Positions 3,707 through 44,042 of a stretch of 46,921 nt of DNA are shown here, piece after piece; position 1 is the first letter of the stretch, and each line of letters opens with the position of its first letter. The position numbers were made by a program, and so were the translations under genes. The notes below the pieces were generated by a model that ran no database searches, had not been told where the DNA came from, and worked only from the letters and a program-made list of their open reading frames with translations. Source of the DNA: Thermostichus vulcanus str. 'Rupite' (GTDB lineage Bacteria; Cyanobacteriota; Cyanobacteriia; Thermostichales; Thermostichaceae); contig NZ_JAFIRA010000030.1 of assembly GCF_022848905.1 (NCBI RefSeq), positions 1 to 46,921 on the forward strand, given 5' to 3'.

Positions 3707-3907
3707 GAATGTGTGATCTCCTGCGGGTTGGCCTCCGCCCGAACGGATCCCGGTTAAGGACACCCGATGGTTCAGGCGTGTGATTTTTTAACAGCTTAAC
3801 TAAGCTAGCATGTCTCTCACGGGATCCCGCAATTTGGGGTTAACGCCTGTTGGGATCTGGTGCTAGACTAGCGAAGCACTTCTAGAGTTTTCTCTTGTTA
3901 AGTGCAT

Positions 3908-3981
3908 CGGGGCGTAGCGCAGCTTGGTAGCGCACCACTTTGGGGTAGTGGGGGTCGAAGGTTCAAATCCTTTCGCTCCGA
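3908..3981 (+). tRNA. tRNA-Pro (anticodon GGG)
   Basis: A complete cloverleaf can be folded by eye. Acceptor stem CGGGGCG pairs with CGCTCCG (one G-T), anticodon stem CCACT/AGTGG closes the loop TTGGGGT with anticodon GGG at 3942-3944, and the T arm reads GGTTCAAATCC. The discriminator is A3981 and CCA is not encoded. The last 23 bases of the tRNA plus 40 bases downstream are repeated at 6014-6076, marking it as the attachment target of the island that follows. Confidence 0.95.
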
Positions 3982-4021
3982 TAGGTAGAGATAGCAAATC
4001 ACCGGAAGCCTGCTTTCTGAG
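3959..4021 (+). repeat. Direct repeat copy 1 (attL-like, overlaps tRNA 3' end)
   Basis: 63 bases from the tRNA T arm through the sequence AAGCCTGCTTTCTGAG. Copy 2 differs at one position inside the tRNA part (TTTCGCTCCG here, TTTTGCTCCG there). After this copy the potential terminator hairpin is spoiled (GACGG instead of CAGG). Confidence 0.85.
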
Positions 4022-4478
4022 ACGGTTTCAGCAGCTTCTTCCTCCTTCTGGGAGGGCTGGTTTAGCCCCGTGAAGGTGACGATTTTGGCCTCAGGGTCTC
4101 CCTAAAACCCTCCCCAAACCACCACTTAAGGCTGGAAGCCCTCTAGAGTTAAGTGAGTGGGTGGGCTTAGGTAAACGTAGTCCTGAAAGCCTTGCTGGTC
4201 AACACGCTGATGATTTAGGGCTGCCCAACACCAACCCCTACCCTACTCCATCCCGCCACCAGCAGCTCGGGAGTCCTTGTCTTCTGGCAGTTCTGTCAGA
4301 ATAAGAATTCCTTTGGTTTTTGCTTAAGATTCATAGATTTTCGTCTATTGACCTTTCTTGAGTGTTTGAGGGAGAAGGTAAGTTGCTTCGCCTAGATCTT
4401 TGAATAGAATTCAGCTATTTTGCTGATGAACTTTTCAACAGATATCATTAAAATGCAGGAAACTGACTGAGATGAGCA
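4022..4478. other. Island left arm, no gene recognised
   Basis: 457 bases between the repeat and the first cargo gene. The first ~250 bases are moderately GC-rich and the remainder turns AT-rich toward 4479. I see no convincing frame on either strand, no integrase, and no strong hairpin with a T tract. It may be a decayed gene or regulatory DNA. Confidence 0.4.
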
Positions 4479-5324
4479 ATGATTTGGAAGATCAGCAAGA
4501 TATTAGGCAAATCTGCTTATCGGGGAATCAAGTTTGCGAAAAATATTAGTCGTACAGCAGACATCATTCAATCTGTCGGAGAATTAATCCCTGATTTTTC
4601 TCTGTTTGAAAATTTCGATGAGCCTTATTTGCAGCCTGTCCAACCTAAGATAGATCAAGACGAAGCTCTAATTTTTGTTAATGGTTTTCTAACTGAAAAT
4701 GAAATACAACCTCAAGATAATCACTTGTTCTGGAGAGCTGTGAGAAAAGCGGGTTGGAGAGGCTCACTGTACCACCTTTGGTGGGATGCTTCTAACCCCA
4801 TGAATTTTGTGATGTCAACATCCCTACTGGGTGTTGGATTACTTCTACATTGGGAAGCCCATGAGAAGAAGGCAAAGACGGTTGGTTTGAAATATACCTA
4901 TCCAATGTTATCAGTGCTGCCTGAGAAAAAGATAACCATCATTGGTTTTTCCTTGGGTGCAAGAATTGCTTACTACACGATGCAGGCTTGGCCTCATCAT
5001 GACAGACGACTCAAGGATATTGTACTTTTGGGTGGTGCTGTCAGGAGAGGAGCAAGTAAGAACTGGAGCGAACATGTAGAAAAACTAAGTGGGAAATTAG
5101 TCAATATCTATAATGAAGAAGATTTAGTGCTTAACTTTCTTTTTAAGACTGCCTCACTGAATAGAAGTCCATGTGGTATTAAGCCGATAAAGGAGTTTCA
5201 TCCAAAGATTGAAAATCTCAATGCAACACATTTGATTGGCTCATTAGGGCATGGTTATACATCCTATCTTCCACACTTGCAAAGATTGCTTGAGCAGAAA
5301 CTAGATTGGAAAAATCTAAGGTGA
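4479..5324 (+). CDS. Alpha/beta-hydrolase fold protein, DUF726-like (island cargo)
   Basis: 281 residues starting at ATG 4479. A nucleophile elbow, IIGFSLGARIAYY (Ser158), a strand with ILFVNGF-like character (LIFVNGFLTEN, residues 64-73), an acid candidate in NEEDLVLNF (Asp215) and a late GHGY histidine (His258) form a plausible Ser-Asp-His triad. The NGF...GFSLGAR...LLGGAV pattern resembles the DUF726/TMCO4-type lipase-like family. Substrate unknown. A hydrophobic patch (STSLLGVGLLLHW) could associate with membranes. AT-rich codon use (many AAA, TTT, ATT) contrasts with the host genes. It is followed 14 bases later by a second gene with a strong ribosome-binding site; the two probably form a unit. 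Confidence 0.65.
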   Translation: MIWKISKILGKSAYRGIKFAKNISRTADIIQSVGELIPDFSLFENFDEPYLQPVQPKIDQDEALIFVNGFLTENEIQPQDNHLFWRAVRKAGWRGSLYHLWWDASNPMNFVMSTSLLGVGLLLHWEAHEKKAKTVGLKYTYPMLSVLPEKKITIIGFSLGARIAYYTMQAWPHHDRRLKDIVLLGGAVRRGASKNWSEHVEKLSGKLVNIYNEEDLVLNFLFKTASLNRSPCGIKPIKEFHPKIENLNATHLIGSLGHGYTSYLPHLQRLLEQKLDWKNLR

Positions 5325-5338
5325 AAGGAGGAGAATTT

Positions 5339-5818
5339 ATGTCAATTGCTGGGATTGCCGTTTCTACTCTATCAGAACTTTATGAGAGAGCGGAGGGTAG
5401 ACATAAATATCCAGAAGGATTGGAAGGAAACCTCCTGAGATTTTTCCTCAGTTTCAAAAAGGCTTTTGATAACAAGAATGAAAGAACTTTAAGTCATCTT
5501 ATTTCAAATCGTTACTACAGCTCGTCTTTTGTGAACAAGAATAAGAAAGATCTTGTCAATTACTTTGGTAGAGTGTTTGATCAACTACCCTTCTTTATTT
5601 ATCCAAATCTGGAGATAGAGATTTGTACAGAGCCTGATATTGTTGAAGGAAATTTGATTTATTTGGTTATTATGGCGTTTATCAATCTTGAGATCTTTGC
5701 CATTCCTGTTGATATATCAAGGTTTCCACTGGGAACAGATGGCAGAATTGGAATTCTATTGGAGAAAGATCCTGCTTCCGGTGTATTCAGAATTGTTAAT
5801 ATGGAAGCTTTAGATTAA
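5339..5818 (+). CDS. Unknown protein, possible NTF2-like fold (island cargo)
   Basis: 159 residues. ATG 5339 is chosen because AAGGAGGAG (5325-5333) sits six bases upstream; an earlier in-frame TTG at 5306 inside the previous gene lacks such a site. I do not recognise a named family. The pattern of an N-terminal helix pair (LLRFFLSFKKAFDNKN), a NRYYSSSFVNKNKKDLVNYF segment and four later beta-like hydrophobic strands is compatible with an NTF2/SnoaL-type cone (inference). No signal peptide, no cysteine cluster. Same composition as its neighbour and translationally close to it. Confidence 0.6.
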   Translation: MSIAGIAVSTLSELYERAEGRHKYPEGLEGNLLRFFLSFKKAFDNKNERTLSHLISNRYYSSSFVNKNKKDLVNYFGRVFDQLPFFIYPNLEIEICTEPDIVEGNLIYLVIMAFINLEIFAIPVDISRFPLGTDGRIGILLEKDPASGVFRIVNMEALD

Positions 5819-5823
5819 TCAAG

Positions 5824-5953
5824 TTACAGCCCCTTCGCGGGTTTACTACAACAACTGTTGTGTCCTTACCCCATTTTGAAAGGGCTCCGGGGATTCCCCC
5901 GTGCTAGGTGACTAGCGGTCGCGCTAGCGTGCTCTTGGCGCAAAGGGCTGTAA
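5824..5953. repeat. Possible miniature inverted-repeat element
   Basis: TTACAGCCCCTT at 5824-5835 is matched in inverse by AAAGGGCTGTAA at 5942-5953 (11 of 12). The ~106-base interior has a small hairpin (ACAACA...TGTTGT) and GC-rich palindromic bits (GGTCGCGCTAGCG). There is no coding frame. The 11-base end TTACAGCCCTT recurs alone at 15338-15348. Confidence 0.35.
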
Positions 5954-6013
5954 GGGAAATTTTAATGCGAGTGTACGTCTGGCCGTGGGAGAGACGTTCC
6001 GAAAACCTTACAG

Positions 6014-6076
6014 AGGTTCAAATCCTTTTGCTCCGATAGGTAGAGATAGCAAATCACCGGAAGCCTGCTTTCTGAG
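6014..6076 (+). repeat. Direct repeat copy 2 (attR-like, truncated tRNA-Pro 3' end)
   Basis: Carries the last 25 bases of tRNA-Pro with one C-to-T change, then 38 bases identical to the flank of the intact tRNA. No 5' part of a tRNA precedes it, so it is a displaced 3' end, as left by site-specific integration into a tRNA gene. Confidence 0.85.
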
Positions 6077-6084
6077 CAGGTTTT
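6064..6084 (+). terminator. Rho-independent terminator, displaced from tRNA-Pro
   Basis: CCTGCT-TTCTG-AGCAGG followed by TTTT. The matching position after the intact tRNA (4005-4025) is mutated in the second arm. This suggests that the distal copy is the original downstream flank of the tRNA gene. Confidence 0.7.
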
Positions 6085-6119
6085 AGTAGCTGAGTCAAAG
6101 ACTTGTTTTGCCCGATTTC

Positions 6120-7142
6120 TTACTGCCCTGTCTCCCCAATCATCGAGACATCCAACTTAGAGCGGATATACTCCCCGGCTTGTACAGGGGCATAACGAGG
6201 GGGATGGTTCTCATCTTGGCAAGTGGGCAAACACTCGATCCAAGCATCATCGCGGGGGGCCGTAAAGTAAACCAAGGATAGACGGCGGCTGGAGCCAAAA
6301 GCTTCTCTGGGTGGGTTCACCACCCGATGTAAGGTAGAGCGCCAACGGTCGTTCGTCCAACGGGCCAACAAATCGCCAACGTTGATGACAAACGAGTTGG
6401 GAACGGCCTGCACGTCAATCCACTCCTCGGACTTGGAGTACACCTGTAGCCCACCGGGCGCCCCATCTTGCCGCAGAAGGGTAAAGCCGCCGTAGTCAGA
6501 GTGAGCGCCGTAGCGCAACTGCCCTGGAAGCGGTTCCACTTCTTGTTCGGGATAATGCACAGCCCGCAGGACTCCCCCTTTCCCTTCCATAAAGGGTAGA
6601 AAATAGGTTTCTGGTAAGTCTAAGGCCAGGGCGCTGATGCGCATTAAGGTTTCAGTAAGCCGCAGTAACGCTGCATCGTAGGCGAGCAAGGCGGCCCGCA
6701 GTCCCGCTGGATGAGTGGGCCAAAGGTTGCCAGAATCGGGATCCAATCCTGCCTGAGGCCGTTGCGGATCTTCCCGAAACAGGTCGTTAAACACCAAGGC
6801 TTCGCAGAGATCGTAGGGAACTTCGGCTCCACGGGTAGCAGCCACACTTTCAATACCAATTGGCAGATACCCCCGATTTTTCACTCGATCTGGAATCGCT
6901 GCCTGCATTTTCTGTTCTAGGGGCAGATCATAAAAAGCCAGCACGCTTTCATAGGCAGTTTGAATGAGGGCTTCCGGGATCCCGTGCCCTGTAACGATCA
7001 CAAATCCCACCTGCTCTAGGGCGGCCCCAAACGCCTTGGCTACCCCCAACGGATCTGTACCCTCCCGAAAAGGCGTCAAGTCCAGACAGGGGATCCCTTG
7101 CTGTTGAGAGTGGACAGGGTGCAGAGATGAGATTAAGGACAT
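6120..7142 (-). CDS. 2-oxoglutarate/Fe(II) oxygenase, isopenicillin N synthase-like
   Basis: 340 residues with the start at ATG 7142 (MSLISSLHPVHSQQQGIP). An open frame continues upstream to a GTG at 7259, abutting the permease stop, so the exact start is uncertain. An N-terminal DIOX_N-type region (CLDLTPFREG... GFVIVTGHGIPE) precedes the double-stranded beta-helix. Iron ligands are visible in AHSDYGGFT (His214, Asp216) and TLHRVV (His272), and the 2-oxoglutarate Arg/Ser in RLSLVYF (Arg287, Ser289). Such enzymes couple 2OG decarboxylation to hydroxylation or ring formation; substrate unknown. It lies downstream of the ABC permease on the same strand and ends just beyond the tRNA-Pro island. 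Confidence 0.85.
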   Translation of the reverse strand: MSLISSLHPVHSQQQGIPCLDLTPFREGTDPLGVAKAFGAALEQVGFVIVTGHGIPEALIQTAYESVLAFYDLPLEQKMQAAIPDRVKNRGYLPIGIESVAATRGAEVPYDLCEALVFNDLFREDPQRPQAGLDPDSGNLWPTHPAGLRAALLAYDAALLRLTETLMRISALALDLPETYFLPFMEGKGGVLRAVHYPEQEVEPLPGQLRYGAHSDYGGFTLLRQDGAPGGLQVYSKSEEWIDVQAVPNSFVINVGDLLARWTNDRWRSTLHRVVNPPREAFGSSRRLSLVYFTAPRDDAWIECLPTCQDENHPPRYAPVQAGEYIRSKLDVSMIGETGQ

Positions 7143-7259
7143 TGCGGATCGGGATTCTTTGGCAAAAGCATTTCCCACATTACAAAAAGGGACGAACCCG
7201 CGGTTGTGTGAGCTGATACTGGCCATTGCGGACTTTTGGGGGAAGGGATGCGGATGCAC

Positions 7260-33660: not shown

Positions 33661-34579
33661 CTTCAATATTCCTCTTGTATAGTACTTGTATAGTACAAGT
33701 CGGATTTGGTATTCAGCAGCACTTTAGTTGAAATTCAAGGTGGTGAGGTGAAAGCTGCCATCCGCTTGTACCCAAGCAACCTCCGGGATCCGACATTGAC
33801 GGGCATAGGCTTCCACCTCTTCTGGGGAGCGATCCAGCAATTCCAGTTCCACGGGCTCAGACTGTCTCCACTGGGCCGCTAAAGCCAGCGCCTGCGGGAT
33901 CCCTGCCGGCACCAAAGGAACCACCAACCGTCGGCAACCGCTCCCATCCGGTTTATGGGCAGGAGGCAAGAGCCGGAGCAGGGTATCGGGTAGCAGCGTA
34001 AAGCCGATCCCGGCCTGTTCTGCCTGATGAGGGCTGTAGAGAGCATACAGCCGATCGTAGCGGCCTCCTAAGCCCACGACCTCGCCACCCACCACCGCCT
34101 GAAAGACAATGCCCGTATAGTAAGCCAAGGTTTGAACCAGGCTCAGATCCAACACCACCTGCACCTGTTGCTCCTGCAAGACCTGGCAAAGTTGTTGCAA
34201 ATCGCGCAACCGATCGGCTGGCACAGGCAACTGCGCCAACTGTGGCAAAACCCGACTGGGCTGGCCCCGCAGCGCCAAAATCTGGGATCCAATCTGGCGG
34301 GCTGCTTCCGGTAAGGGTGCTGACTCCAGATAGACATAATCCAATTGGGCAATGGCTCGTCGAACCGCCGCTTGGGCAGTGGGGGCAATGGGGCTAAGCA
34401 AACTTTCGGTGAGACTCACATCCCCCAACAACAGCGTCCAATCGGGGATCCCGTTCCCGCCTTCCCTTGTGTGCCCGAAGGGGGTAGCAGCGCCCTGACC
34501 GACGGAACGAATACAATCGGCCAGCAGCAGCAGGATCTCGGCATCCGCCAGCCAACCCCCAGCCCCGATCAGCTCCACC
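33661..34579. repeat. Direct duplication of hisZ 3' region, copy 1 (truncated)
   Basis: 919 bases matching 42699-43620 with a 3-base gap and about 24 substitutions counted by eye in the coding part. The left end is 17 bases after the pentapeptide gene, the right end 3 bases before the IS630 terminus. Confidence 0.93.
33724..34579 (-). pseudogene. hisZ: Truncated hisZ copy (C-terminal ~285 residues)
   Basis: Encodes the C-terminal two thirds of HisZ from VELIGAGGW onward, identical to the intact protein except at about four positions (LLL/TLL, HTR/HAS and LYA/LHA). It lacks the motif-2 half and has no start or ribosome site of its own. About 19 of the 24 base differences from the intact copy are synonymous, so the fragment diverged while still part of a working gene. 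It is cut where the IS630 element begins. Confidence 0.9.
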
Positions 34580-34610: not shown

Positions 34611-35093
34611 CTAGCAAGCACAGTAGTTCCGAATCACTTCATCAATAGAAGTTCCAATGTCGGCATGCATCCTTGCCCTCTTGAGAGCACTAAAATCATG
34701 CTCTATGTCATTTAGATCCGGAGAGTACCTGGGCAGAAAGACTACCTCATGTCCCCCAGCTTCCACCAACTCCTTTATCCTACCCTTACAATGAATTGGT
34801 GCATTATCCATAATTAAAACAGATGGCCTCTCCAAGCTCGGTATGAAGTATCGCTCCAGCCACCCTTCAAATCCTTCTGCATTTAAGCTGCCTTGAAAAA
34901 GCATAGGTGCTATCCAGTCCTTCTTCTTTTTCCTCCTACCTGCCACTAGGCTCTCTTGCTTCCCTTGCTTCTCTCCATAAACTTTTTTCCCTCTCTTTGC
35001 CCAAGCATAAACACAAGTACATATCTCATCAAAACTCGTCTCGTCAATATAAACTAAGCTATCACTGCCATATTTCCGTATGAACTCCCGCAA
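34611..35093 (-). CDS. IS630 transposase, DDE catalytic part
   Basis: 160 residues from the internal methionine (MREFIRKYGSDSLVYIDETSF). DDE_3 catalytic residues: Asp in YIDETSF, Asp in LIMDNAPIHCKG, and Glu in RYSPDLNDIEHDFSALKR. The frame extends upstream without a stop back to the A8 tract (35148-35155), giving KELRYRERDWQERIKYYRV, the natural join to the N-terminal frame. It is therefore probably expressed as a fusion by frameshifting or transcript slippage rather than from this methionine. Confidence 0.88.
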   Translation of the reverse strand: MREFIRKYGSDSLVYIDETSFDEICTCVYAWAKRGKKVYGEKQGKQESLVAGRRKKKKDWIAPMLFQGSLNAEGFEGWLERYFIPSLERPSVLIMDNAPIHCKGRIKELVEAGGHEVVFLPRYSPDLNDIEHDFSALKRARMHADIGTSIDEVIRNYCAC

Positions 35094-35729: not shown

Positions 35730-35837
35730 TCAGTGGGCCTTCAGGGGCAGATTTTCCACACTGGTGGTGACCGCGTCGGCGGCCAGCAGAGGGTAGGTGC
35801 TCACCGAGCGATACATGGCCTGCAGCTCAGTGGCCAA
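35730..35837 (-). CDS. Possible small ORF downstream of dioxygenase alpha
   Basis: 35 codons from TTG 35837 (overlapping the alpha-subunit stop by 11 bases) or fewer from an internal ATG at 35816. It reads ATELQAMYRSVSTYPLLAAD and on to NLPLKAH. The composition looks protein-like. It may be a small translationally coupled protein, or a frameshifted C-terminus. No family recognised. Confidence 0.3.
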   Translation of the reverse strand: MATELQAMYRSVSTYPLLAADAVTTSVENLPLKAH

Positions 35838-37116
35838 CGGCCCGCCGCACCCGCAGGGGAACGGGATCCCGCATCAGTCGTTTCCACTCTTGCCAATAGG
35901 CTCGAATCGGAGCTTCGCTGGCAATCGAGCCTGTGACCCGGCCCCATTCATCCTCTCGATCCCCCGCTTGATCCCCCCGGCTGATATCCAGCCACTCCTC
36001 CTCAGGGATCCCTAGCCCCTCCTGAATCCGCTCAAAGATCGCCAGATCATCCGGGGTGCCAAAGCTGACGAAATCCTCCTCCACCCGTAACCGCAGCAGG
36101 TTGATCTCCTCCGGCCCATCCTCCACCACCGCCAGGTAGAGGGTGATGCGGGTGCGATCCACCGCCAGGGGCTCCACCACCATTAGCTGGTTACCCACCA
36201 ATATCAAATTGGGAAAGAGGCTGAGGTTAACCATGTTGCCGGTGGCCAGCTCCAGCAGTTGGGGTGGGTGCTGAACTCGTAGGGATCCCTCCAAGGCCTC
36301 GCGGGTAGGCAGTTGTCGCATGGTTGACCACGGCCCCTCCGGGATCCCAGGTCGTTGATCCACCACACAATGGCCGTGATCCAGGGTTTGGCTGACCATC
36401 GGGGTATTGGCCGGATTGCGGGCCAGAACGGTCTCCGTGTGGGCCTGGTGACCCAATTGGTTGTAGGAGCGGTGGGCAAAGGTGGCATGGATCCCATCGG
36501 CAGCATTGTCCCACAGCAGCTTCCAGTTGCCCGCAAACTCTAGCCGAACCGGGGAGTCCAGCAGTCGGATGGTGCCGTTGGGATGGCGATTGAGGTGCTG
36601 ATCCAGCCAGGGCAACGCCGCTCCGAGCCAGTTCACCAGCTCCAGTGGCTCTGCGGCCAGGGTGCCAAAGATCAAGCCCCGATAGGTCTCCACCCGCAGC
36701 TGGCCTAGATGAAACGACCCCTTGCGGGGGTTGGCGTAGCTGTCGGCCACAGGCAGATTGCGCAGGTGACCATCCAGGTCAAAACACCAGCCGTGATAGG
36801 GACAGGTCAGGCGCTTGCTACATCCTTTCTCTGCTGTGACCAGGAGGGTGCCACGGTGGGTGCATCGGTTGAACAGGCCATGAATCTGGCCATCCCGCCC
36901 CCGCGTCAGCAGGATAGGGCGACGACCCATCGTCCGGCGCACAAAGGAGCCTGGCTGAGGAATCTCGCTGTTGTGCCCCAAGTAGATCCACGTCCCCCCG
37001 AAGATGCGCTCCATCTCCAGCTCAAATAGGGCAGGATCCGTATAGAGATGACGATGTACCCGATCCGACTGGATCAACCTGTCAAAATCAGGAGGATTGG
37101 CGGCGGGAAAAACCAT
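35827..37116 (-). CDS. Ring-hydroxylating dioxygenase alpha subunit (Rieske)
   Basis: 429 residues. It would insert O2 into an aromatic or heteroaromatic ring, or demethylate, with electrons arriving through a Rieske cluster. Cluster ligands: RCTHRG (Cys85, His87) and CPYHGW (Cys105, His108). Catalytic-domain iron site: DNAADGIHATFAHRSY (bridging Asp207, ligands His210 and His215), with FGTPDDLAIFERIQEGL supplying the late Asp region. The pattern fits the alpha subunit of a two-component alpha/beta enzyme, and a beta gene is immediately upstream. No ferredoxin or reductase gene is in the operon, so electrons must come from elsewhere, conceivably photosynthetic ferredoxin. Confidence 0.93.
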   Translation of the reverse strand: MVFPAANPPDFDRLIQSDRVHRHLYTDPALFELEMERIFGGTWIYLGHNSEIPQPGSFVRRTMGRRPILLTRGRDGQIHGLFNRCTHRGTLLVTAEKGCSKRLTCPYHGWCFDLDGHLRNLPVADSYANPRKGSFHLGQLRVETYRGLIFGTLAAEPLELVNWLGAALPWLDQHLNRHPNGTIRLLDSPVRLEFAGNWKLLWDNAADGIHATFAHRSYNQLGHQAHTETVLARNPANTPMVSQTLDHGHCVVDQRPGIPEGPWSTMRQLPTREALEGSLRVQHPPQLLELATGNMVNLSLFPNLILVGNQLMVVEPLAVDRTRITLYLAVVEDGPEEINLLRLRVEEDFVSFGTPDDLAIFERIQEGLGIPEEEWLDISRGDQAGDREDEWGRVTGSIASEAPIRAYWQEWKRLMRDPVPLRVRRAVGH

Positions 37117-37194
37117 GGCGAGAGTCCGGGAACAGGTTTGTTTCTTTTGGAAGCGTCTGATGGAACCGAGGAACCACTAGGGGGGCTGCAAAGC

Positions 37195-37818
37195 CTACAG
37201 CAGCCAGCCCAAATGCTGGGATCCCCGGGCGAGCTCGGGAATCAGCAGGGTTTTGCGGAGTATCTGGAACCCTGCAACAGTTGGCCCCTCAGGGGTTGCT
37301 CCCTCAGCTATGAGGCGCAAGCGGTGGATCTGACGGGCCACCACCTGGCGGGGCTGGGATCCCGCAACCACCTGCAGGATTAGGGTACTGCTGGCCACTA
37401 TGGTTCCTTCGGCAAGGTCCTTGTGGGGGTGCTCCCAGGCTTCGACACTGGTGATAGCCCGTACCATCTCGGGCAGGGGCTGGATCCCCCAGGCATAGGG
37501 ATCCCTAAGCCGCCAGACCCGCTCCTGCAATCGTCGCCAATCGTCCAAAAATAGGGCCTGATCTGTGCCTGGGTGACTGTCCCGCCGCAACGGGATCCAG
37601 TACCAACCCTGGGGATCCCAGAGCTGGAGCCAGCGTTCAAAATGCCCCGCATCCAACAGGCGGGCTTCCAGGGCCAAAAAGCGCTCTACGTCTGCCACAA
37701 GAGCCTGAGGGGTGGCCAGAGGTGCCGACAGCACCCAATCCCGCTCAGCGGCCAGGTCATCGTAGAGGGCCTTAACCCCCTCAAGCCCCCGTTGAGCCGA
37801 GAGGTGTGCAGCACTCAT
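37195..37818 (-). CDS. Ring-hydroxylating dioxygenase beta subunit
   Basis: 207 residues; NTF2-like small subunit that builds the alpha3beta3 hexamer. VADVERFLALEARLLDAGHF, WLQLWDPQGWYWIPLRRDS, RVWRLRDPYAWGIQPLPEMV and the C-terminal FQILRKTLLIPE follow the family's order. ATG 37818 overlaps the permease stop in ATGA. The alpha start lies 78 bases downstream. Confidence 0.9.
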   Translation of the reverse strand: MSAAHLSAQRGLEGVKALYDDLAAERDWVLSAPLATPQALVADVERFLALEARLLDAGHFERWLQLWDPQGWYWIPLRRDSHPGTDQALFLDDWRRLQERVWRLRDPYAWGIQPLPEMVRAITSVEAWEHPHKDLAEGTIVASSTLILQVVAGSQPRQVVARQIHRLRLIAEGATPEGPTVAGFQILRKTLLIPELARGSQHLGWLL

Positions 37819-39404
37819 CCCACCACCTGCTCAGGGGCCACCTGCGACAACACCAACCGTTCTAACCCGACCACCAGGCTGTACCCCGCCACCGAGACCG
37901 CCGTCAGCAGCACCACCGCGCTCCACAACAAACCGTAGTTGCTGGTGGAGTAGGTGAGGGCCATCAGATTGCCGATGCCGGTGCCGGTGGCCAGCCATTC
38001 TGCCACGGTTGCCGCCAGCACCGCAGTGGGCACCGCGATGCGAGCCCCAGCAAAGAAGGCGGGCAATGCCGCCGGGAGACGGGCCAAGACCAGGATCCTC
38101 AACCGACCGGCGGCAAAGGTGTTGAACACATCCACCACCTGGCCCGGCACCTGCCGCAACCCCTGGGCACAGGCGATCAAGGTGGGGAAAAAGGTCATCA
38201 CCGCCACCAGCGTGATTAAGCTGGCTCCGCCTCGGCCTAGGAGGATGATCACCAGCGGGGCCGTGGTGATGATGGGCACCGAACGTAGGGCAATGGCCAC
38301 GGGCATCACCCCCCGCCGCACCCACGGGAACAGCTCAAAGACACAGGCCGTGAGCAAGCCCACCATCAGGCCGACAAAATAGCCTGGCAGCGTCACCCCT
38401 AGGGTGGATCCCAGAGCCTGGAATACTTGCTCTCGATGGGATCTAGCGTTGGCATGGGTGACCAGAAACTCCCAGACATCCCCCGGTCGCTTGGCGAAGA
38501 AACGGTTCAAATTGAGCCAATCCATGCTGATCTGCCACATCAGCAGAATCAGCAGACCCGTCAAGGCCGCCATCCCCAAAGAGATCCATAGTGTTGCGGC
38601 TGAGGGCTTGCGGTTGGGTCGGGCCGTCAGCAGAAGAGGAGGGGTGCCCGGAGAGAGCCACCGCCCAAACGCCACCGCCAGACCATAAACCGCGATTGAA
38701 GCCACCGTTGCTAGGCTGGCTACCGTCCACGTGGCCACCACATCCAGCGACCGGATCCCTTGGATCACCAGCACCCCCATGCCCCGTTCGGCCCCGGTAA
38801 ATTCCCCCACCATCGCCCCTAGCACCGCCGCTGGCGCCGCCACCTGCAACCCCGCCACCAAATAGGGCACCGCCGCTCGGGCCCGCACATACCGCAGCAT
38901 CGCCAGTCGGCCCCGACCATAGCTGGCCACCAGATCGGCCCAACTGGCGGGAATGGCCCGCAGTCCCACCACCAAGGACACAAAGGTGGTGTAGTAGACC
39001 GCCAGGGCCGCCAGGGTAATTTGTGGGCCATCGGAGGTGCCAAAGATCACCCGCAGCACCGGCCCTGTGGCCACCAGCGGCAGACAAAACACCACCAGGG
39101 CCAGGTTTTGGATCAATCGCTCGCTCACGGGAAACAAGGCCACCAGCATGGCCAACAGCATGGCCGCCCCATTGCCGTACAGGAAGCCCCAAGACGCCTC
39201 CCGCAGGGTGACCAGTAGGGCCCGAGCATATAGGTCGGAGCGACTGGCCAACCGATCCACAATGGCGCTGGGGGCCGCCAAAATATAGCGTTCCGATAGC
39301 AAAAGCCGAACCAGCAGCTCCCAGGCCACCAGCAAGCCCCCAACGATGAGCAGGCTGTTCACCCCGATCAGTGTCCCTCTTGCCCCAGGCCCAAGCCGGT
39401 TCAC
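37815..39404 (-). CDS. ABC permease, two SsuC/TauC-type domains fused
   Basis: 529 residues, about twice the normal permease. Each half carries its own membrane bundle and EAA-type loop: SYGRGRLAMLRYVRARAAVP in the first half and TFAAGRLRILVLARLPAALP in the second. A linker at ~255-275 (LTARPNRKPSAAT) joins them. One polypeptide would thus supply both membrane halves of the importer. Start GTG 39404 overlaps the ATPase stop by four bases; its stop overlaps the beta-subunit start. Confidence 0.92.
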   Translation of the reverse strand: MNRLGPGARGTLIGVNSLLIVGGLLVAWELLVRLLLSERYILAAPSAIVDRLASRSDLYARALLVTLREASWGFLYGNGAAMLLAMLVALFPVSERLIQNLALVVFCLPLVATGPVLRVIFGTSDGPQITLAALAVYYTTFVSLVVGLRAIPASWADLVASYGRGRLAMLRYVRARAAVPYLVAGLQVAAPAAVLGAMVGEFTGAERGMGVLVIQGIRSLDVVATWTVASLATVASIAVYGLAVAFGRWLSPGTPPLLLTARPNRKPSAATLWISLGMAALTGLLILLMWQISMDWLNLNRFFAKRPGDVWEFLVTHANARSHREQVFQALGSTLGVTLPGYFVGLMVGLLTACVFELFPWVRRGVMPVAIALRSVPIITTAPLVIILLGRGGASLITLVAVMTFFPTLIACAQGLRQVPGQVVDVFNTFAAGRLRILVLARLPAALPAFFAGARIAVPTAVLAATVAEWLATGTGIGNLMALTYSTSNYGLLWSAVVLLTAVSVAGYSLVVGLERLVLSQVAPEQVVG

Positions 39405-40231
39405 CGCTGCACCTCCAACACCTGCTCCAGCCCCAATGCCTCTGAGACGTGAGCGACTAGGTGATGAAACTCCGGAGAGCGCAAAATCTGAGCCTGCCGG
39501 GGGCGAGGCAACGTCACCGGGATCCGAGCCACGATCCGGCCTGGCCTCACGCTCATCACCAGGATCTCATCGGCCAACAGCACCGCCTCATCGATGGAGT
39601 GGGTGACCAACAGGGCCGTCGTCCCCCGGTTTTCCCAGAGGCGGGGCAACTCCAGATTCAGCCGTCGTCGGGTTAGCTCATCCACCGCCCCAAAGGGCTC
39701 ATCCAACAACAACAGTCGAGGCTGGGTGATCAGACAGCGGGCAATGGCCGCCCGTTGCCGCATTCCTCCCGACAATTCTGCCGGTTTGGCCCGTTCAAAT
39801 CCCTCCAAGCCCACCCGCGCCAACAGCTCCCGGATCCCAGCTCGATCCACCGGCTGCTGGGCTAGGGTTTGGGCCAGAGCCACGTTGGACTCCACGCTGC
39901 GCCAGGGCAGCAACGAGGGATCCTGAAAAGCCACGGCGATCTCCCCTCGCTTTTTCACCACAGCCGGGGGCTGGCCATCGATCAACACCTCGCCGCTGGA
40001 GAGGGTTTCCAGACCTGCGATCGCCCTTAGCAGAGTGGATTTGCCACAGCCGGATGGCCCCACCAATGCCGTCAGGGATCCCGGCTGTAGCCGCAGATTG
40101 ATATCCGCCAGGGCTGGCACCCGAGTTGGCCCCCAGCCAAAGATCTTGCTGCCCTCCACCACCCGCACCTCTGGGGGCTGGATGGCCCTGGGATCCCTGA
40201 GGTTGGCCCTAGATGGTAGATTGACCGCCAT
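39401..40231 (-). CDS. ABC importer ATPase (SsuB/TauB/NrtD-like)
   Basis: 276 residues. Walker A GPSGCGKST, Q-loop FQDPSLLPWR, signature LSGGMRQR, Walker B LLLLDEPFGAVDE and switch LVTHSIDEA are complete, so the ATPase should be active. The DEPFGAVD and PWRSVESNV variants are those of taurine/nitrate/alkanesulfonate/thiamine-precursor importers. Its ATG lies 23 bases inside the 3' end of the binding-protein gene. Confidence 0.95.
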   Translation of the reverse strand: MAVNLPSRANLRDPRAIQPPEVRVVEGSKIFGWGPTRVPALADINLRLQPGSLTALVGPSGCGKSTLLRAIAGLETLSSGEVLIDGQPPAVVKKRGEIAVAFQDPSLLPWRSVESNVALAQTLAQQPVDRAGIRELLARVGLEGFERAKPAELSGGMRQRAAIARCLITQPRLLLLDEPFGAVDELTRRRLNLELPRLWENRGTTALLVTHSIDEAVLLADEILVMSVRPGRIVARIPVTLPRPRQAQILRSPEFHHLVAHVSEALGLEQVLEVQR

Positions 40232-41228
40232 AGATTTCTTCTAAAATTGAGCGATCCCAGAGGGCTGGGGTGACCTCCTTCCCCAGCAGGTTGAGGGTCT
40301 CCACATTGGCGGCCACCGTCTCGTCAGTAAACCAGCCAAAGCCATTCTGGTCGGTCAAATCCGAGAACATCAGCTTCAGTTGTTCGCTGGCTTGTAGCTT
40401 CTGGGTTTCTAGATCCAGTCCTGCATCTGGGAACAGCTCCAGCGTCAACTCCGCTGCCGCATCCGTGTCGGCTCGATAGTCCTGCCAGCCGCGAATCTCC
40501 CCGCGCAGCAGGCCAATCACCTCCCCACGACGGGTTTTTAGGCTCTCTTCTAGAACAATGTAGGTCTGGCTGTGGACGGTGTAGCCGTAGTCGGCCATCA
40601 ACATGGTGACGTTGTCGATCCCCTGGACGGTCATGGCCACGGGCAGATCCGTGAGCCAGCACAGCAGGCAGTCCACCTCTCCATTCACCAAGGGGGCCGC
40701 ATCGTACTGGGTGGGGATGATGGTGATCTGGTCGATGTCCACATTGTTGAGGGTGCAGAGGGTCTGCAACACGGGGGTGTTGGCGATGGCCATGCCGATG
40801 CTCTTGCCCTCCAGATCCTTGGGCTCGTTGACCGGGTTGTCCGGCAGCGAGGCGATGGTGAAGGGGTTGTTTTGCATCGCCACGGCGATGATCTTGAAGG
40901 GAGCCCCCTGTGAGACCGCAGCAGCCGTGTAGTCTGCCGCCGAAATGCCCATCAATGCGGTGCCACTGACAACGGGTGGCTCGACGGGAGCGTTGGGGCC
41001 GCCGGGCACCAGGCTTACTTCTAACCCCTCTTCAGCCCAGTAGCCTTTGTCCTGAGCGATGTAGCTGCCGCCAAACTGCACCGAGTGCAGCCAGGAAAGC
41101 TGAAAGCCCACCGAGATGGCAGCCCGGGCATCGGGAGTGCGCAGCAATGGGGAGCCAGCCACAAGCGCACCACCAGCCCCCAAGAGTTTGATGGCGCTGC
41201 GGCGAGAGACGGAATGAGGCTTAAACAT
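40209..41228 (-). CDS. ABC substrate-binding protein, NMT1/SsuA type, Tat-exported
   Basis: 339 residues from ATG 41228. Twin-arginine signal VSRRSAIKLLGAGGALVAGS with cleavage likely near ARA, then the SsuA/THI5-like domain: VGFQLSWLHSVQFGGSYIAQ, GYWAEEGLEVSLVPGG, GISAADYTAAAVSQGAPFKI and EPKDLEGKSIGMAIAN. Family ligands include sulfonates, nitrate, HMP/thiamine precursors and aromatic acids; the LSW-LHS-QFGG start is closest to the pyrimidine/aromatic-type members as I recall them. It delivers the ligand to the fused permease. Confidence 0.92.
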   Translation of the reverse strand: MFKPHSVSRRSAIKLLGAGGALVAGSPLLRTPDARAAISVGFQLSWLHSVQFGGSYIAQDKGYWAEEGLEVSLVPGGPNAPVEPPVVSGTALMGISAADYTAAAVSQGAPFKIIAVAMQNNPFTIASLPDNPVNEPKDLEGKSIGMAIANTPVLQTLCTLNNVDIDQITIIPTQYDAAPLVNGEVDCLLCWLTDLPVAMTVQGIDNVTMLMADYGYTVHSQTYIVLEESLKTRRGEVIGLLRGEIRGWQDYRADTDAAAELTLELFPDAGLDLETQKLQASEQLKLMFSDLTDQNGFGWFTDETVAANVETLNLLGKEVTPALWDRSILEEIYGGQSTI

Positions 41229-41310
41229 CAACCACGCTTGAGACAGGAACAACAAAGCTCACTGTTCAAACGGTGCCTCAACTGGGAGGTGGATTCTGTA
41301 CCTGTAGCTA

Positions 41311-42117
41311 CTACTCCTGCCAAAAGGCCGCCACAGGCCAAGCTCGCTCCACAATGTGGGTCTCGGGATGAGCGTAGCGAATGGAAATGCGCCGGAAGGG
41401 ATGGGGACAGGCTTTGCCTCCTGCATGGAGCGTGCGAGAGTCCAGAATCATCACATCCCCGGGCTCGAAGGGGGGGGCAAGAATGTTGACCTCTGGCCCC
41501 AGCCTGCTGTTTGCAAGATCTCCATCAATATCAGGGACGGGAGCAAGCGTGTCTCCTGCGGCGGTCAACGTGGCCTCCGCCGCCGAAAATTCAACGGGGG
41601 CAAAAAGAGGCCCGCGATGGGATCCCACCACAGCCCGTAATCCCTGCCCCGCCAGGACAGGATCCAATGGGATCCAGAAGGTCAAGAACCAGGGCTCCAG
41701 CGGGTGATAGGGGTGATCCTGATGCCAGGGGCTAAGAGTTTGGGCTCTTGCCTCCGAGTAGAAAAACTGATCTTCTAGCAAGACAACGGAATCGGTGCCA
41801 AAGATACTGGCAGCCAATTGGGGCAGGATCCCTTCGGTTACCACCTGGGTCAGGGTTGCATCCTCAGGCCAGCGAAATAAATCGCTTTGAACCACGGGCA
41901 GACCGACTGGAGACAGTGTCCGAAAATGCGGCCCCGGCTTGGCCCGTAAATGATCAATCGCTCGAATTAAGGCAGTACACAGGTTGGGCTCAAGGATCCC
42001 TGAGAGCACCGCCACGCCATCCCGGGCGATCTGCTGAGACAGATGAGGGTCTGGACGGGGGGATATCTCCAGAAGCTTCATGGCAGATTTGAGCTGGAGT
42101 CGGGTGGGTAACGCCAT
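41311..42117 (-). CDS. Phytanoyl-CoA dioxygenase (PhyH)-family oxygenase
   Basis: 268 residues from ATG 42117; ATG 42081 is an alternative. Fe(II)/2OG double-stranded beta-helix with WHQDHPYHP (His132, Asp134), distal DSRTLHAGG (His231) and FRRISIRY (Arg for 2OG). A second, chemically distinct oxygenase next to the Rieske pair suggests two oxidation steps, for example hydroxylation or dealkylation of the same imported compound (inference). 82 bases upstream of the binding-protein start. Confidence 0.85.
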   Translation of the reverse strand: MALPTRLQLKSAMKLLEISPRPDPHLSQQIARDGVAVLSGILEPNLCTALIRAIDHLRAKPGPHFRTLSPVGLPVVQSDLFRWPEDATLTQVVTEGILPQLAASIFGTDSVVLLEDQFFYSEARAQTLSPWHQDHPYHPLEPWFLTFWIPLDPVLAGQGLRAVVGSHRGPLFAPVEFSAAEATLTAAGDTLAPVPDIDGDLANSRLGPEVNILAPPFEPGDVMILDSRTLHAGGKACPHPFRRISIRYAHPETHIVERAWPVAAFWQE

Positions 42118-42161
42118 CAGCAGGATCCTTAGCAGCTGCCGTGAAGTTGGCTATCGGCGGT

Positions 42162-42590
42162 CTACTGGGGGGAGGACTGTCTCTCTAGTCTCAGCACCCC
42201 CAGTTGCTCGTAGACCGACAGGCCATCCCACATCGACCAACATTCTACAAAGCGGCCCTCCGACAGACGCAGCAAATCGATGCCCGTCATGGTGATTCGC
42301 TTGTGAGTGGCGGGAATATCGTCGTAGGTATCTACGTGTAGGCCGCTTGTGGACCAGTGCAACACCACCATATCCCCTTCGCTGACGAGGTGATGGATCT
42401 GGGTCTCCACCTCCCGAAATGCCTTGAAATAGCGTTCTACATCGGCTTTGACCACATCAATCCCATTGCCATCAAAGCCGGTCATGTGAACTTCGGCTGT
42501 GGGTAGCCAGTAGTCCTCAACTGCGCTCAGATCCCCTTTGGCCCAGAGACGGGTATGGTACTCGCGAACGATATCGGCATTGGTGACCAT
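42162..42590 (-). CDS. SnoaL-like NTF2-fold protein
   Basis: 142 residues from ATG 42590 (MVTNADIVREYHTRLWAKGD). SnoaL/ester-cyclase pattern: DLSAVEDYWLPTAEVHMTGF, VERYFKAFREVETQIHHLV, DMVVLHWSTSGLHVDTY and ITMTGIDLLRLSEGRFVECW. Such folds serve as isomerases, dehydratases or hydrolases of cyclic intermediates. It is the first gene of the seven-gene minus-strand operon; the promoter must lie in 42591-42698 or further upstream. Confidence 0.82.
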   Translation of the reverse strand: MVTNADIVREYHTRLWAKGDLSAVEDYWLPTAEVHMTGFDGNGIDVVKADVERYFKAFREVETQIHHLVSEGDMVVLHWSTSGLHVDTYDDIPATHKRITMTGIDLLRLSEGRFVECWSMWDGLSVYEQLGVLRLERQSSPQ

Positions 42591-42698
42591 GTTAGTTAGG
42601 GATCCCTCTAGTGGCCTGTATGGATAGGGTGGCACGCTCCCCGTGTAACCGGCATTGATTCAGCAACGAAGGGAGTATCAAGGGGCTTCGCGGTGCAT

Positions 42699-43620
42699 CT
42701 TCAATATCCCTCAATTTGTATAGTACTTGTATGGTACAAGTCGGATTTGGTATTCAGCAGCACTTTAGTTGAAATTCAAGGTGGTGAGGTGAAAGCTGCC
42801 ATCCGCTTGTACCCAAGCAACCTCCGGGATCCGGCATTGACGGGCATAGGCTTCCACCTCTTCTGGGGAGCGATCCAGCAATTCCAGTTCCACGGGCTCA
42901 GACTGTCTCCACTGGGCCGCTAAAGCCAGCGCCTGCGGGATCCCTGCCGGTACCAAAGGAACCACCAACCGTCGGCAACCGCTCCCATCCGGTTTATGGG
43001 CAGGGGGCAAGAGCCGGAGCAGGGTATCGGGTAGCAGCGTAAAGCCGATCCCGGCCTGTTCTGCCTGATGAGGGCTGTAGAGAGCATGCAGCCGATCGTA
43101 GCGGCCTCCCAAGCCCACGACTTCGCCACCCACCACCGCCTGAAAAACGATGCCCGTGTAGTAAGCCAAGGTTTGAACCAGGCTCAGATCCAGCACCACT
43201 TGCACCTGTTGCTCCTGCAAAACTTGGCAAAGTTGTTGCAAATCGCGCAACCGATCGGCTGGCACGGGCAACTGCGCCAACTGTGGCAAAACACGGCTGG
43301 GCTGGCCCCGCAGCGCTAAAATCTGGGATCCAATCTGGCGAGCTGCTTCCGGTAAGGGTGCTGACTCCAGATAGACATAATCCAATTGGGCAATGGCGCG
43401 TCGAACTGCCGCTTGGGCAGTGGGGGCAATGGGGCTAAGCAAACTTTCGGTGAGACTCACATCCCCCAACAACAGCGTCCAATCGGGGATCCCGTTCCCG
43501 CCTTCGCTTGCGTGCCCGAAGGGGGTAGCAGCGCCCTGACCGACGGAACGAATACAATCGGCCAGCAGCGTCAGGATCTCGGCATCCGCCAGCCAACCCC
43601 CAGCCCCGATCAGCTCCACC
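42699..43620. repeat. Direct duplication of hisZ 3' region, copy 2 (in intact gene)
   Basis: Counterpart of 33661-34579. Both copies carry, just past the hisZ stop, the palindrome ACTTGTA-N3-TACAAGT (42725-42741 here, 33684-33700 in copy 1). Confidence 0.93.
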
Positions 43621-44042
43621 CCCGACTGGAAAAATTCCTGCCCACTGCTGGATCCCTCCTCCCGCTGGCTGTTGCGAAAAACGCTGCCATGGTAGTAAAG
43701 CCGCAAAGGCAAGGGCCCAGAAGAGAGACGAGTTGCCGCTGCCCGCACAATGGAAGCGGTCAGTTCTGGGCGCAACCCCAGCATCGTCCCTTCGCTATCC
43801 CGCAGTTGCAGTACAGACTCCGCCTGGATGGATCCCCCGGCCAGCAGCGTTTCCAACCGTTCTAGAGTAGGGGTAATGATGCGCTGATAGCCATAGCGCT
43901 GGAACACCTGGCTCAGTTGAGACTCCAACCATTCCCGCCGCTGGACCTCACGCGGCAAGAAATCCCGAGCGCCGCTGGGTGGCCGCAAGCTGCTGGGGCT
44001 GGTGGGGGATCCCACGGCTAGGCGGGAGTCTGCATCGTACAC
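42765..44042 (-). CDS. hisZ: ATP phosphoribosyltransferase regulatory subunit
   Basis: 425 residues from GTG 44042. HisS-like fold without tRNA-synthetase function; it pairs with short-form HisG for the first step of histidine synthesis. The N-terminus PPSGARDFLPREVQRREWLE, motif-2 LRLYYHGSVFRNSQREEG and late LGGRYDRL and GIGFTLLPDTLL resemble HisRS, but the protein has no C-terminal anticodon-binding length. Lies 30 bases downstream of the nicotinamidase-like gene, same strand. Its 3' two thirds are duplicated at 33661-34579. Confidence 0.9.
   Translation of the reverse strand: MYDADSRLAVGSPTSPSSLRPPSGARDFLPREVQRREWLESQLSQVFQRYGYQRIITPTLERLETLLAGGSIQAESVLQLRDSEGTMLGLRPELTASIVRAAATRLSSGPLPLRLYYHGSVFRNSQREEGSSSGQEFFQSGVELIGAGGWLADAEILTLLADCIRSVGQGAATPFGHASEGGNGIPDWTLLLGDVSLTESLLSPIAPTAQAAVRRAIAQLDYVYLESAPLPEAARQIGSQILALRGQPSRVLPQLAQLPVPADRLRDLQQLCQVLQEQQVQVVLDLSLVQTLAYYTGIVFQAVVGGEVVGLGGRYDRLHALYSPHQAEQAGIGFTLLPDTLLRLLPPAHKPDGSGCRRLVVPLVPAGIPQALALAAQWRQSEPVELELLDRSPEEVEAYARQCRIPEVAWVQADGSFHLTTLNFN

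Follow-up and report, generated by a model that had tools for sequence, protein, structure and literature searches.

A two-gene islet without an integrase at a tRNA-Pro(GGG) gene of Thermostichus vulcanus, probably a decayed tRNA-site island

What is the AT-rich DNA that follows the tRNA-Pro(GGG) gene of Thermostichus vulcanus str. 'Rupite', how could it have arrived there, and is it able to move? An earlier note on this DNA had described a tRNA-bounded island of about 2 kb that carries two genes and no integrase, and had proposed that it may be a satellite, or defense cargo, mobilized in trans. We followed up these proposals in the window, the whole stretch of 46,921 nucleotides that was analyzed, which is contig C30 of a 3.72-Mb assembly (120 contigs; completeness estimate, 99.99%). 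Below, "the islet" denotes the DNA bracketed by the repeat.

The repeat and the DNA between its copies

The 63-base direct repeat that the earlier note placed at the T arm of the tRNA was confirmed. It starts inside the T arm (position 3959), and its copies at 3959-4021 and 6014-6076, which lie 2,055 bp apart, are identical at 62 of 63 positions; the mismatch (C3974 versus T) is a C-to-T change of the right copy that sits in the acceptor part. Extended to 3959-4036 and 6014-6091, the repeat is 78 nt long at 94% identity (Table 1). The whole genome holds two copies, both of which bracket the islet; searches of the rest of the genome and of viral contigs for the attachment sequence found no others. 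In the left repeat the terminator hairpin is damaged (GAGACGG instead of GAGCAGG), and the hairpin of the right copy matches, in an alignment, the tRNA-Pro terminators of three relatives (G003, G006, and G007). The sequence downstream of tRNA-Pro in G007 likewise gave a local score of 66 with the right copy versus 52 with the left copy, whose match stops earlier. Such differences between the copies are expected if the right copy were the displaced original tRNA end of the host and the left copy had been carried in by the islet.

Table 1. Features of the islet and its borders in the window
Feature	Position	Strand	Basis
tRNA-Pro(GGG), complete, 3' end restored by the islet	3907..3982	+	ARAGORN
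attL-like left repeat: tRNA T arm and acceptor 3' end, then a further 54 nt	3959..4036	+	
Gene-less leader, GC 0.48 over 3983-4441	3983..4478		
ORF1, 281 aa, predicted DUF726-type alpha/beta serine hydrolase, nucleophile elbow GFSLGA	4479..5324	+	Pfam, family alignment
ORF2, 159 aa, NTF2-like model	5339..5818	+	
MITE-like dispersed repeat, inverted ends TTACAGCCC...GGGCTGTAA	5824..5953 (approx.)		
attR-like right repeat: displaced tRNA 3' fragment, one mutation (C to T), native tail	6014..6091	+	
Intact tRNA terminator AAGCCTGC-TTTCTGA-GCAGGTTTT	6061..6084	+	Fold; alignment with G003, G006, G007

The bracketed DNA is 38% GC, compared with 57% for the host, and its AT richness, already reported, holds against a local background: the GC content is 0.379 over 4442-5821, whereas windows of 1,380 bp elsewhere in the window have a mean of 0.571 (SD, 0.028; minimum, 0.482). 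The tetranucleotide distance of the gene-bearing part is 0.69, and the maximum elsewhere in the window is 0.44. The claim that the interval is devoid of GGATCC was also correct; this hexamer occurs 165 times in the window and is missing between 3822 and 6739, which is the longest gap, the second-longest being 1,429 bp.

The islet contains two tightly spaced genes, in agreement with the earlier description, and ∼460 bp of noncoding DNA at its left, beside the tRNA. Recombinase searches of the interval were empty, so that the reported absence of an integrase stands, and no integrase remnants beyond chance were detected in the islet, leader included. When the islet was used as a query, 41 further matches were obtained in this genome, nearly all of them to the MITE-like repeat behind the two genes. 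Related sequences number ∼40 in this genome, whereas G003 has a few and the other congeners very few, a recent lineage-specific expansion. The host DNA to the right of the right repeat carries a gene (6120-7259) that by eye resembles 2OG-Fe(II) oxygenases. Farther along the window, a HisZ-like gene is accompanied, ∼9 kb from the full gene, by a second, truncated copy of its downstream part (33724-34578 and 42765-44042). The truncated copy adjoins an IS630-like transposase ORF (34611-35093), and ABC transporter and dioxygenase-like genes occupy the DNA between the two copies (35827-42635).

The same tRNA gene in relatives and the search for a helper integrase

Is the islet a fixture of this locus? 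All five congeners share with the window a colinear block that runs from rpsB to tRNA-Pro, and the similarity ends at the tRNA 3' end or no more than 13 bases past it. None of the five has the islet behind tRNA-Pro. Each of them has DNA there that differs from that of the window, with one neighbor in common between G004 and G005; in G002 (L053), an array of short repeats (TTTCCAATTTATAGGGATCCCC...GGGGAC) lies directly downstream of the tRNA. Because the right flank of the islet is located elsewhere in the congeners and gene order in the genus is too scrambled, no empty site joining both flanks was found among them. The search of relatives for empty tRNA-Pro sites, which the earlier note had suggested, thus showed the islet to be absent from the five congeners but gave no two-flank junction. 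The earlier note had also named what would speak against an island, namely, the same two genes fixed at this locus in all relatives with a composition like that of the host; the genes are not fixed there, and the composition is not host-like. The description as a tRNA-bounded island without an integrase is supported by three findings: a 3' fragment of the tRNA has been displaced, the composition is foreign, and five congeners lack the islet.

Family member G006 carries a truncated tyrosine integrase (Pfam, 2.7e-14; PHROG integrase, 8.8e-22) that starts ∼100 nt past its copy of this tRNA gene, and a homologue of this integrase is near tRNA-Pro in G011. On sequence grounds, these integrase remains and their homologue mark the tRNA as an integrase target. 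A G007 protein behind tRNA-Pro, with an integrase-like start, was dropped as a candidate after searches gave no confirmation.

Could a helper integrase act on the islet from elsewhere? The earlier note had suggested one with the same attachment sequence in this genome, which was looked for and not found. The genome has one tyrosine recombinase, a core gene present in eight of eight family genomes and 87 to 96% identical within the genus, and a search for serine recombinases found none. A resident helper is unlikely on these grounds; a visiting helper is conceivable. When the islet DNA and both proteins were compared with phages, plasmids, and viral contigs, the matches were confined to tRNAs and to distant proteins of the DUF726 type on plasmids of Vibrio and Halocatena; neither protein matched phage records or viral contigs, and no close plasmid relatives of the DNA or the proteins were found. 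PADLOC gave no match in the islet. These results give no support to the remaining proposals of the earlier note: a satellite nature, given the empty phage and viral searches; defense cargo, given the PADLOC result; and mobilization in trans, given the lack of a third attachment copy and a recombinase complement limited to the core gene.

The two cargo genes

ORF1 belongs to the DUF726 family (Pfam PF05277), with an E value of 1.4e-18 and 67.4 bits compared to a gathering cutoff of 22.6; it also matches Abhydrolase_2 (2.8e-5). The likeness is to the C-terminal half of the family, but ORF1 lacks the long N-terminal part of a 609-aa cyanobacterial member (G026). In the alignment, GFSLGA and further blocks are invariant in five family homologues of ORF1, and a late His is conserved. 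ORF1 is most likely an esterase or lipase that would work at membranes. Of 291 genomes sampled from the class, 9 have homologues of ORF1. These are chromosomal in two congeners, and in G001 and G004 they sit after a gene that looks flavodiiron-like by eye. The GC3 of ORF1 is 0.36, compared to 0.55 for the congener homologues (G001 and G004) and 0.37 to 0.39 for those of G006 and G007; the latter two have the highest identity to ORF1 (71 to 72%), and their DNA is more AT-rich. This pattern fits a putative recent arrival of ORF1 from an AT-rich source. A gene tree of seven sequences gave no clear placement of ORF1 outside the genus.

Elsewhere in the genus this type of hydrolase appears to be in the process of loss, since the G001 (JA-3-3Ab) homologue is truncated without its late His and that of G002 is interrupted by stop codons. 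The G001 copy, which lies in the segment 12969-14883 of L045, ends early and adjoins a two-part IS630-like transposase; the His that it lost is kept in four other homologues.

ORF2 follows ORF1 after a gap of 14 nt in an operon-like arrangement. We placed its start not at 5306 but at 5339, behind a strong Shine-Dalgarno sequence (AAAGGAGGAG) that lies just past the ORF1 stop. Searches of Pfam, NCBIfam, PHROG, and PADLOC gave it no significant match, and homologues are rare, occurring in 5 genomes of a sample of 291 and in 7 of another of 386, counting that of the window itself; in the neighborhoods inspected, no ORF2 homologue had one of ORF1 next to it. AlphaFold gave a pLDDT of 42 from an input of five sequences, a model that was not used, and a mean pLDDT of 79 from seven sequences. 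The second model had 379 PDB matches at an E value of ≤0.001, the best of which were NTF2/cystatin-like, with TM-scores of only 0.3 to 0.7. By this fold test the modeled ORF2 is NTF2/cystatin-like, and the protein may be a small NTF2-fold partner or helper of the hydrolase.

In G006 (L082, 4431-6819), a GTPase with a DUF697-like tail is immediately upstream of the ORF1 homologue, and in G470 (L092, 4203-5958), a similar DUF697-type GTPase adjoins the ORF2 homologue; the likeness between the two GTPases was judged by eye. Because such GTPases adjoin homologues of both genes, they hint faintly that the ORF1 and ORF2 families are tied to a common membrane-associated process. It is a long shot that the hydrolase and the NTF2-like protein work as a pair within a membrane module of cyanobacteria that includes a DUF697-type GTPase, and that this pair spreads as a minimal integrase-less cassette moved by visiting tRNA-Pro integrases.

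Origin, mobility, and kinship of the islet

The repeat and the single displaced fragment are in the correct order and orientation for a tRNA-site insertion, and they support the explanation that we hold to be probable: a small tRNA-Pro island that entered by a tyrosine recombinase, with an integrase that was lost or acted in trans, and that has since become a probably immobile two-gene remnant. Entry would have been site specific, at the 3' part of the tRNA-Pro(GGG) gene, and the crossover would have fallen within the T arm or close to it. The anatomy shows that the tRNA gene was restored by a copy of the tRNA end that the islet brought along, and that the old 3' end of the host, together with its terminator, was shifted 2,055 bp downstream. 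The integrase would then have been deleted, or it would have acted in trans at entry and since disappeared; because no integrase remnant is seen in the islet, we only infer its loss. What was left over would be a two-gene operon of a predicted DUF726-type serine hydrolase and a presumed NTF2-fold partner, behind which the MITE-like repeat would have inserted afterwards. With the integrase lost, or trans-acting and no longer present, the islet is probably immobile now.

How much DNA arrived is a separate question. Rather than entering as a 2-kb unit, the islet may be what survives, two genes and both ends, of a larger tRNA-Pro island that was mostly deleted, a reading to which we give somewhat less than an even chance. 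The noncoding leader next to the tRNA occupies the usual place of an integrase, and integrase remains are present behind tRNA-Pro in a related genus; however, there is no trace of other island genes, and with one genome this reading is inseparable from the best explanation. As it is a sub-case of the latter, their probabilities overlap and do not add to one. Continued mobility, in which an integrase of another element (a phage, an ICE, or a tRNA-Pro island) moves the islet in trans as a cis-mobilizable or minimal satellite-like element, is unlikely. Its attachment-like repeats are nearly intact, at 62 of 63 positions, and tRNA-Pro is accompanied by integrase remains in G006 and by a tyrosine integrase homologue in G011, but the sole integrase-type gene of this genome is the core recombinase, the attachment site has no further copy in the genome, and no kin DNA or protein was found in phages or viral contigs and none close in plasmids. 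The MITE-like insertion and the mutations in the repeat further suggest that the islet has been resident for some time.

It is equally worth asking whether anything was inserted at all. In a much-shuffled genome, a local rearrangement or duplication could have put a copy of the tRNA tail at an unrelated breakpoint, which would be in keeping with congeners that all differ downstream of the tRNA, with the scrambled gene order, and with ORF1 homologues that are chromosomal in two congeners. We consider this improbable: the fragment starts exactly in the T arm and is found downstream of the tRNA without a change of orientation, and it bounds DNA that is clearly different in composition on both sides. 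That ORF1 and ORF2 form an anti-phage or toxin-antitoxin module is very unlikely. Closely coupled, uncharacterized genes in a tRNA-site islet would suit such a module, as would an ORF2 relative that in one genome lies near a pair resembling HigB-HigA by eye; against this, PADLOC gave no match, and in other genomes the homologues mostly stand alone on the chromosome, next to housekeeping genes.

Which known elements does the islet resemble? Islander defines a tRNA island by a complete tRNA, a displaced 3' fragment, an interval of 2 to 200 kb, and an integrase gene inside (PMC4383910). The islet has a complete tRNA, a displaced fragment that lies downstream and is oriented like the tRNA, and foreign DNA between them, and its 2,055 bp from repeat to repeat fall within that range, but no integrase gene lies in the interval. 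CIMEs have kept attL and attR, have lost integration and transfer genes, and are mobilized via an element integrated in tandem (PMC5704250). The islet is alike in keeping both attachment sites without integration and transfer genes, yet it shows no evidence of ICE or IME ancestry and is accompanied by no tandem element, further attachment copy, or non-core integrase. Tycheposons, tRNA-associated cargo islands first known from cyanobacteria (PMC10872708, PMC11389934), are delimited by a tRNA border, a tyrosine recombinase, and a length of 4 to 200 kb (PMC10872708). The islet shares the tRNA-associated cargo, but it is 2 kb long and has no tyrosine recombinase, and tycheposons are marine and belong to another lineage. 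Phage satellites of the PICI/PICMI type differ from the islet, which has no integrase, no regulatory or packaging genes, and no phage-associated relatives, and known anti-phage systems differ in that the islet matches no PADLOC model.

On the best reading, the islet is tRNA targeted and ordinary, its integrase lost or never present. The finding is real but ordinary: a minimal and probably decayed islet at a tRNA site, which most resembles either an Islander-type island that lacks its integrase or a CIME. It illustrates cleanly and on a small scale how foreign cargo remains at a tRNA gene once the integrase is gone, and that integrase-based island finders overlook such cases. Its value lies more in the uncharacterized cargo than in the island, with ORF2 as the founder of a small sequence family that has no Pfam entry.
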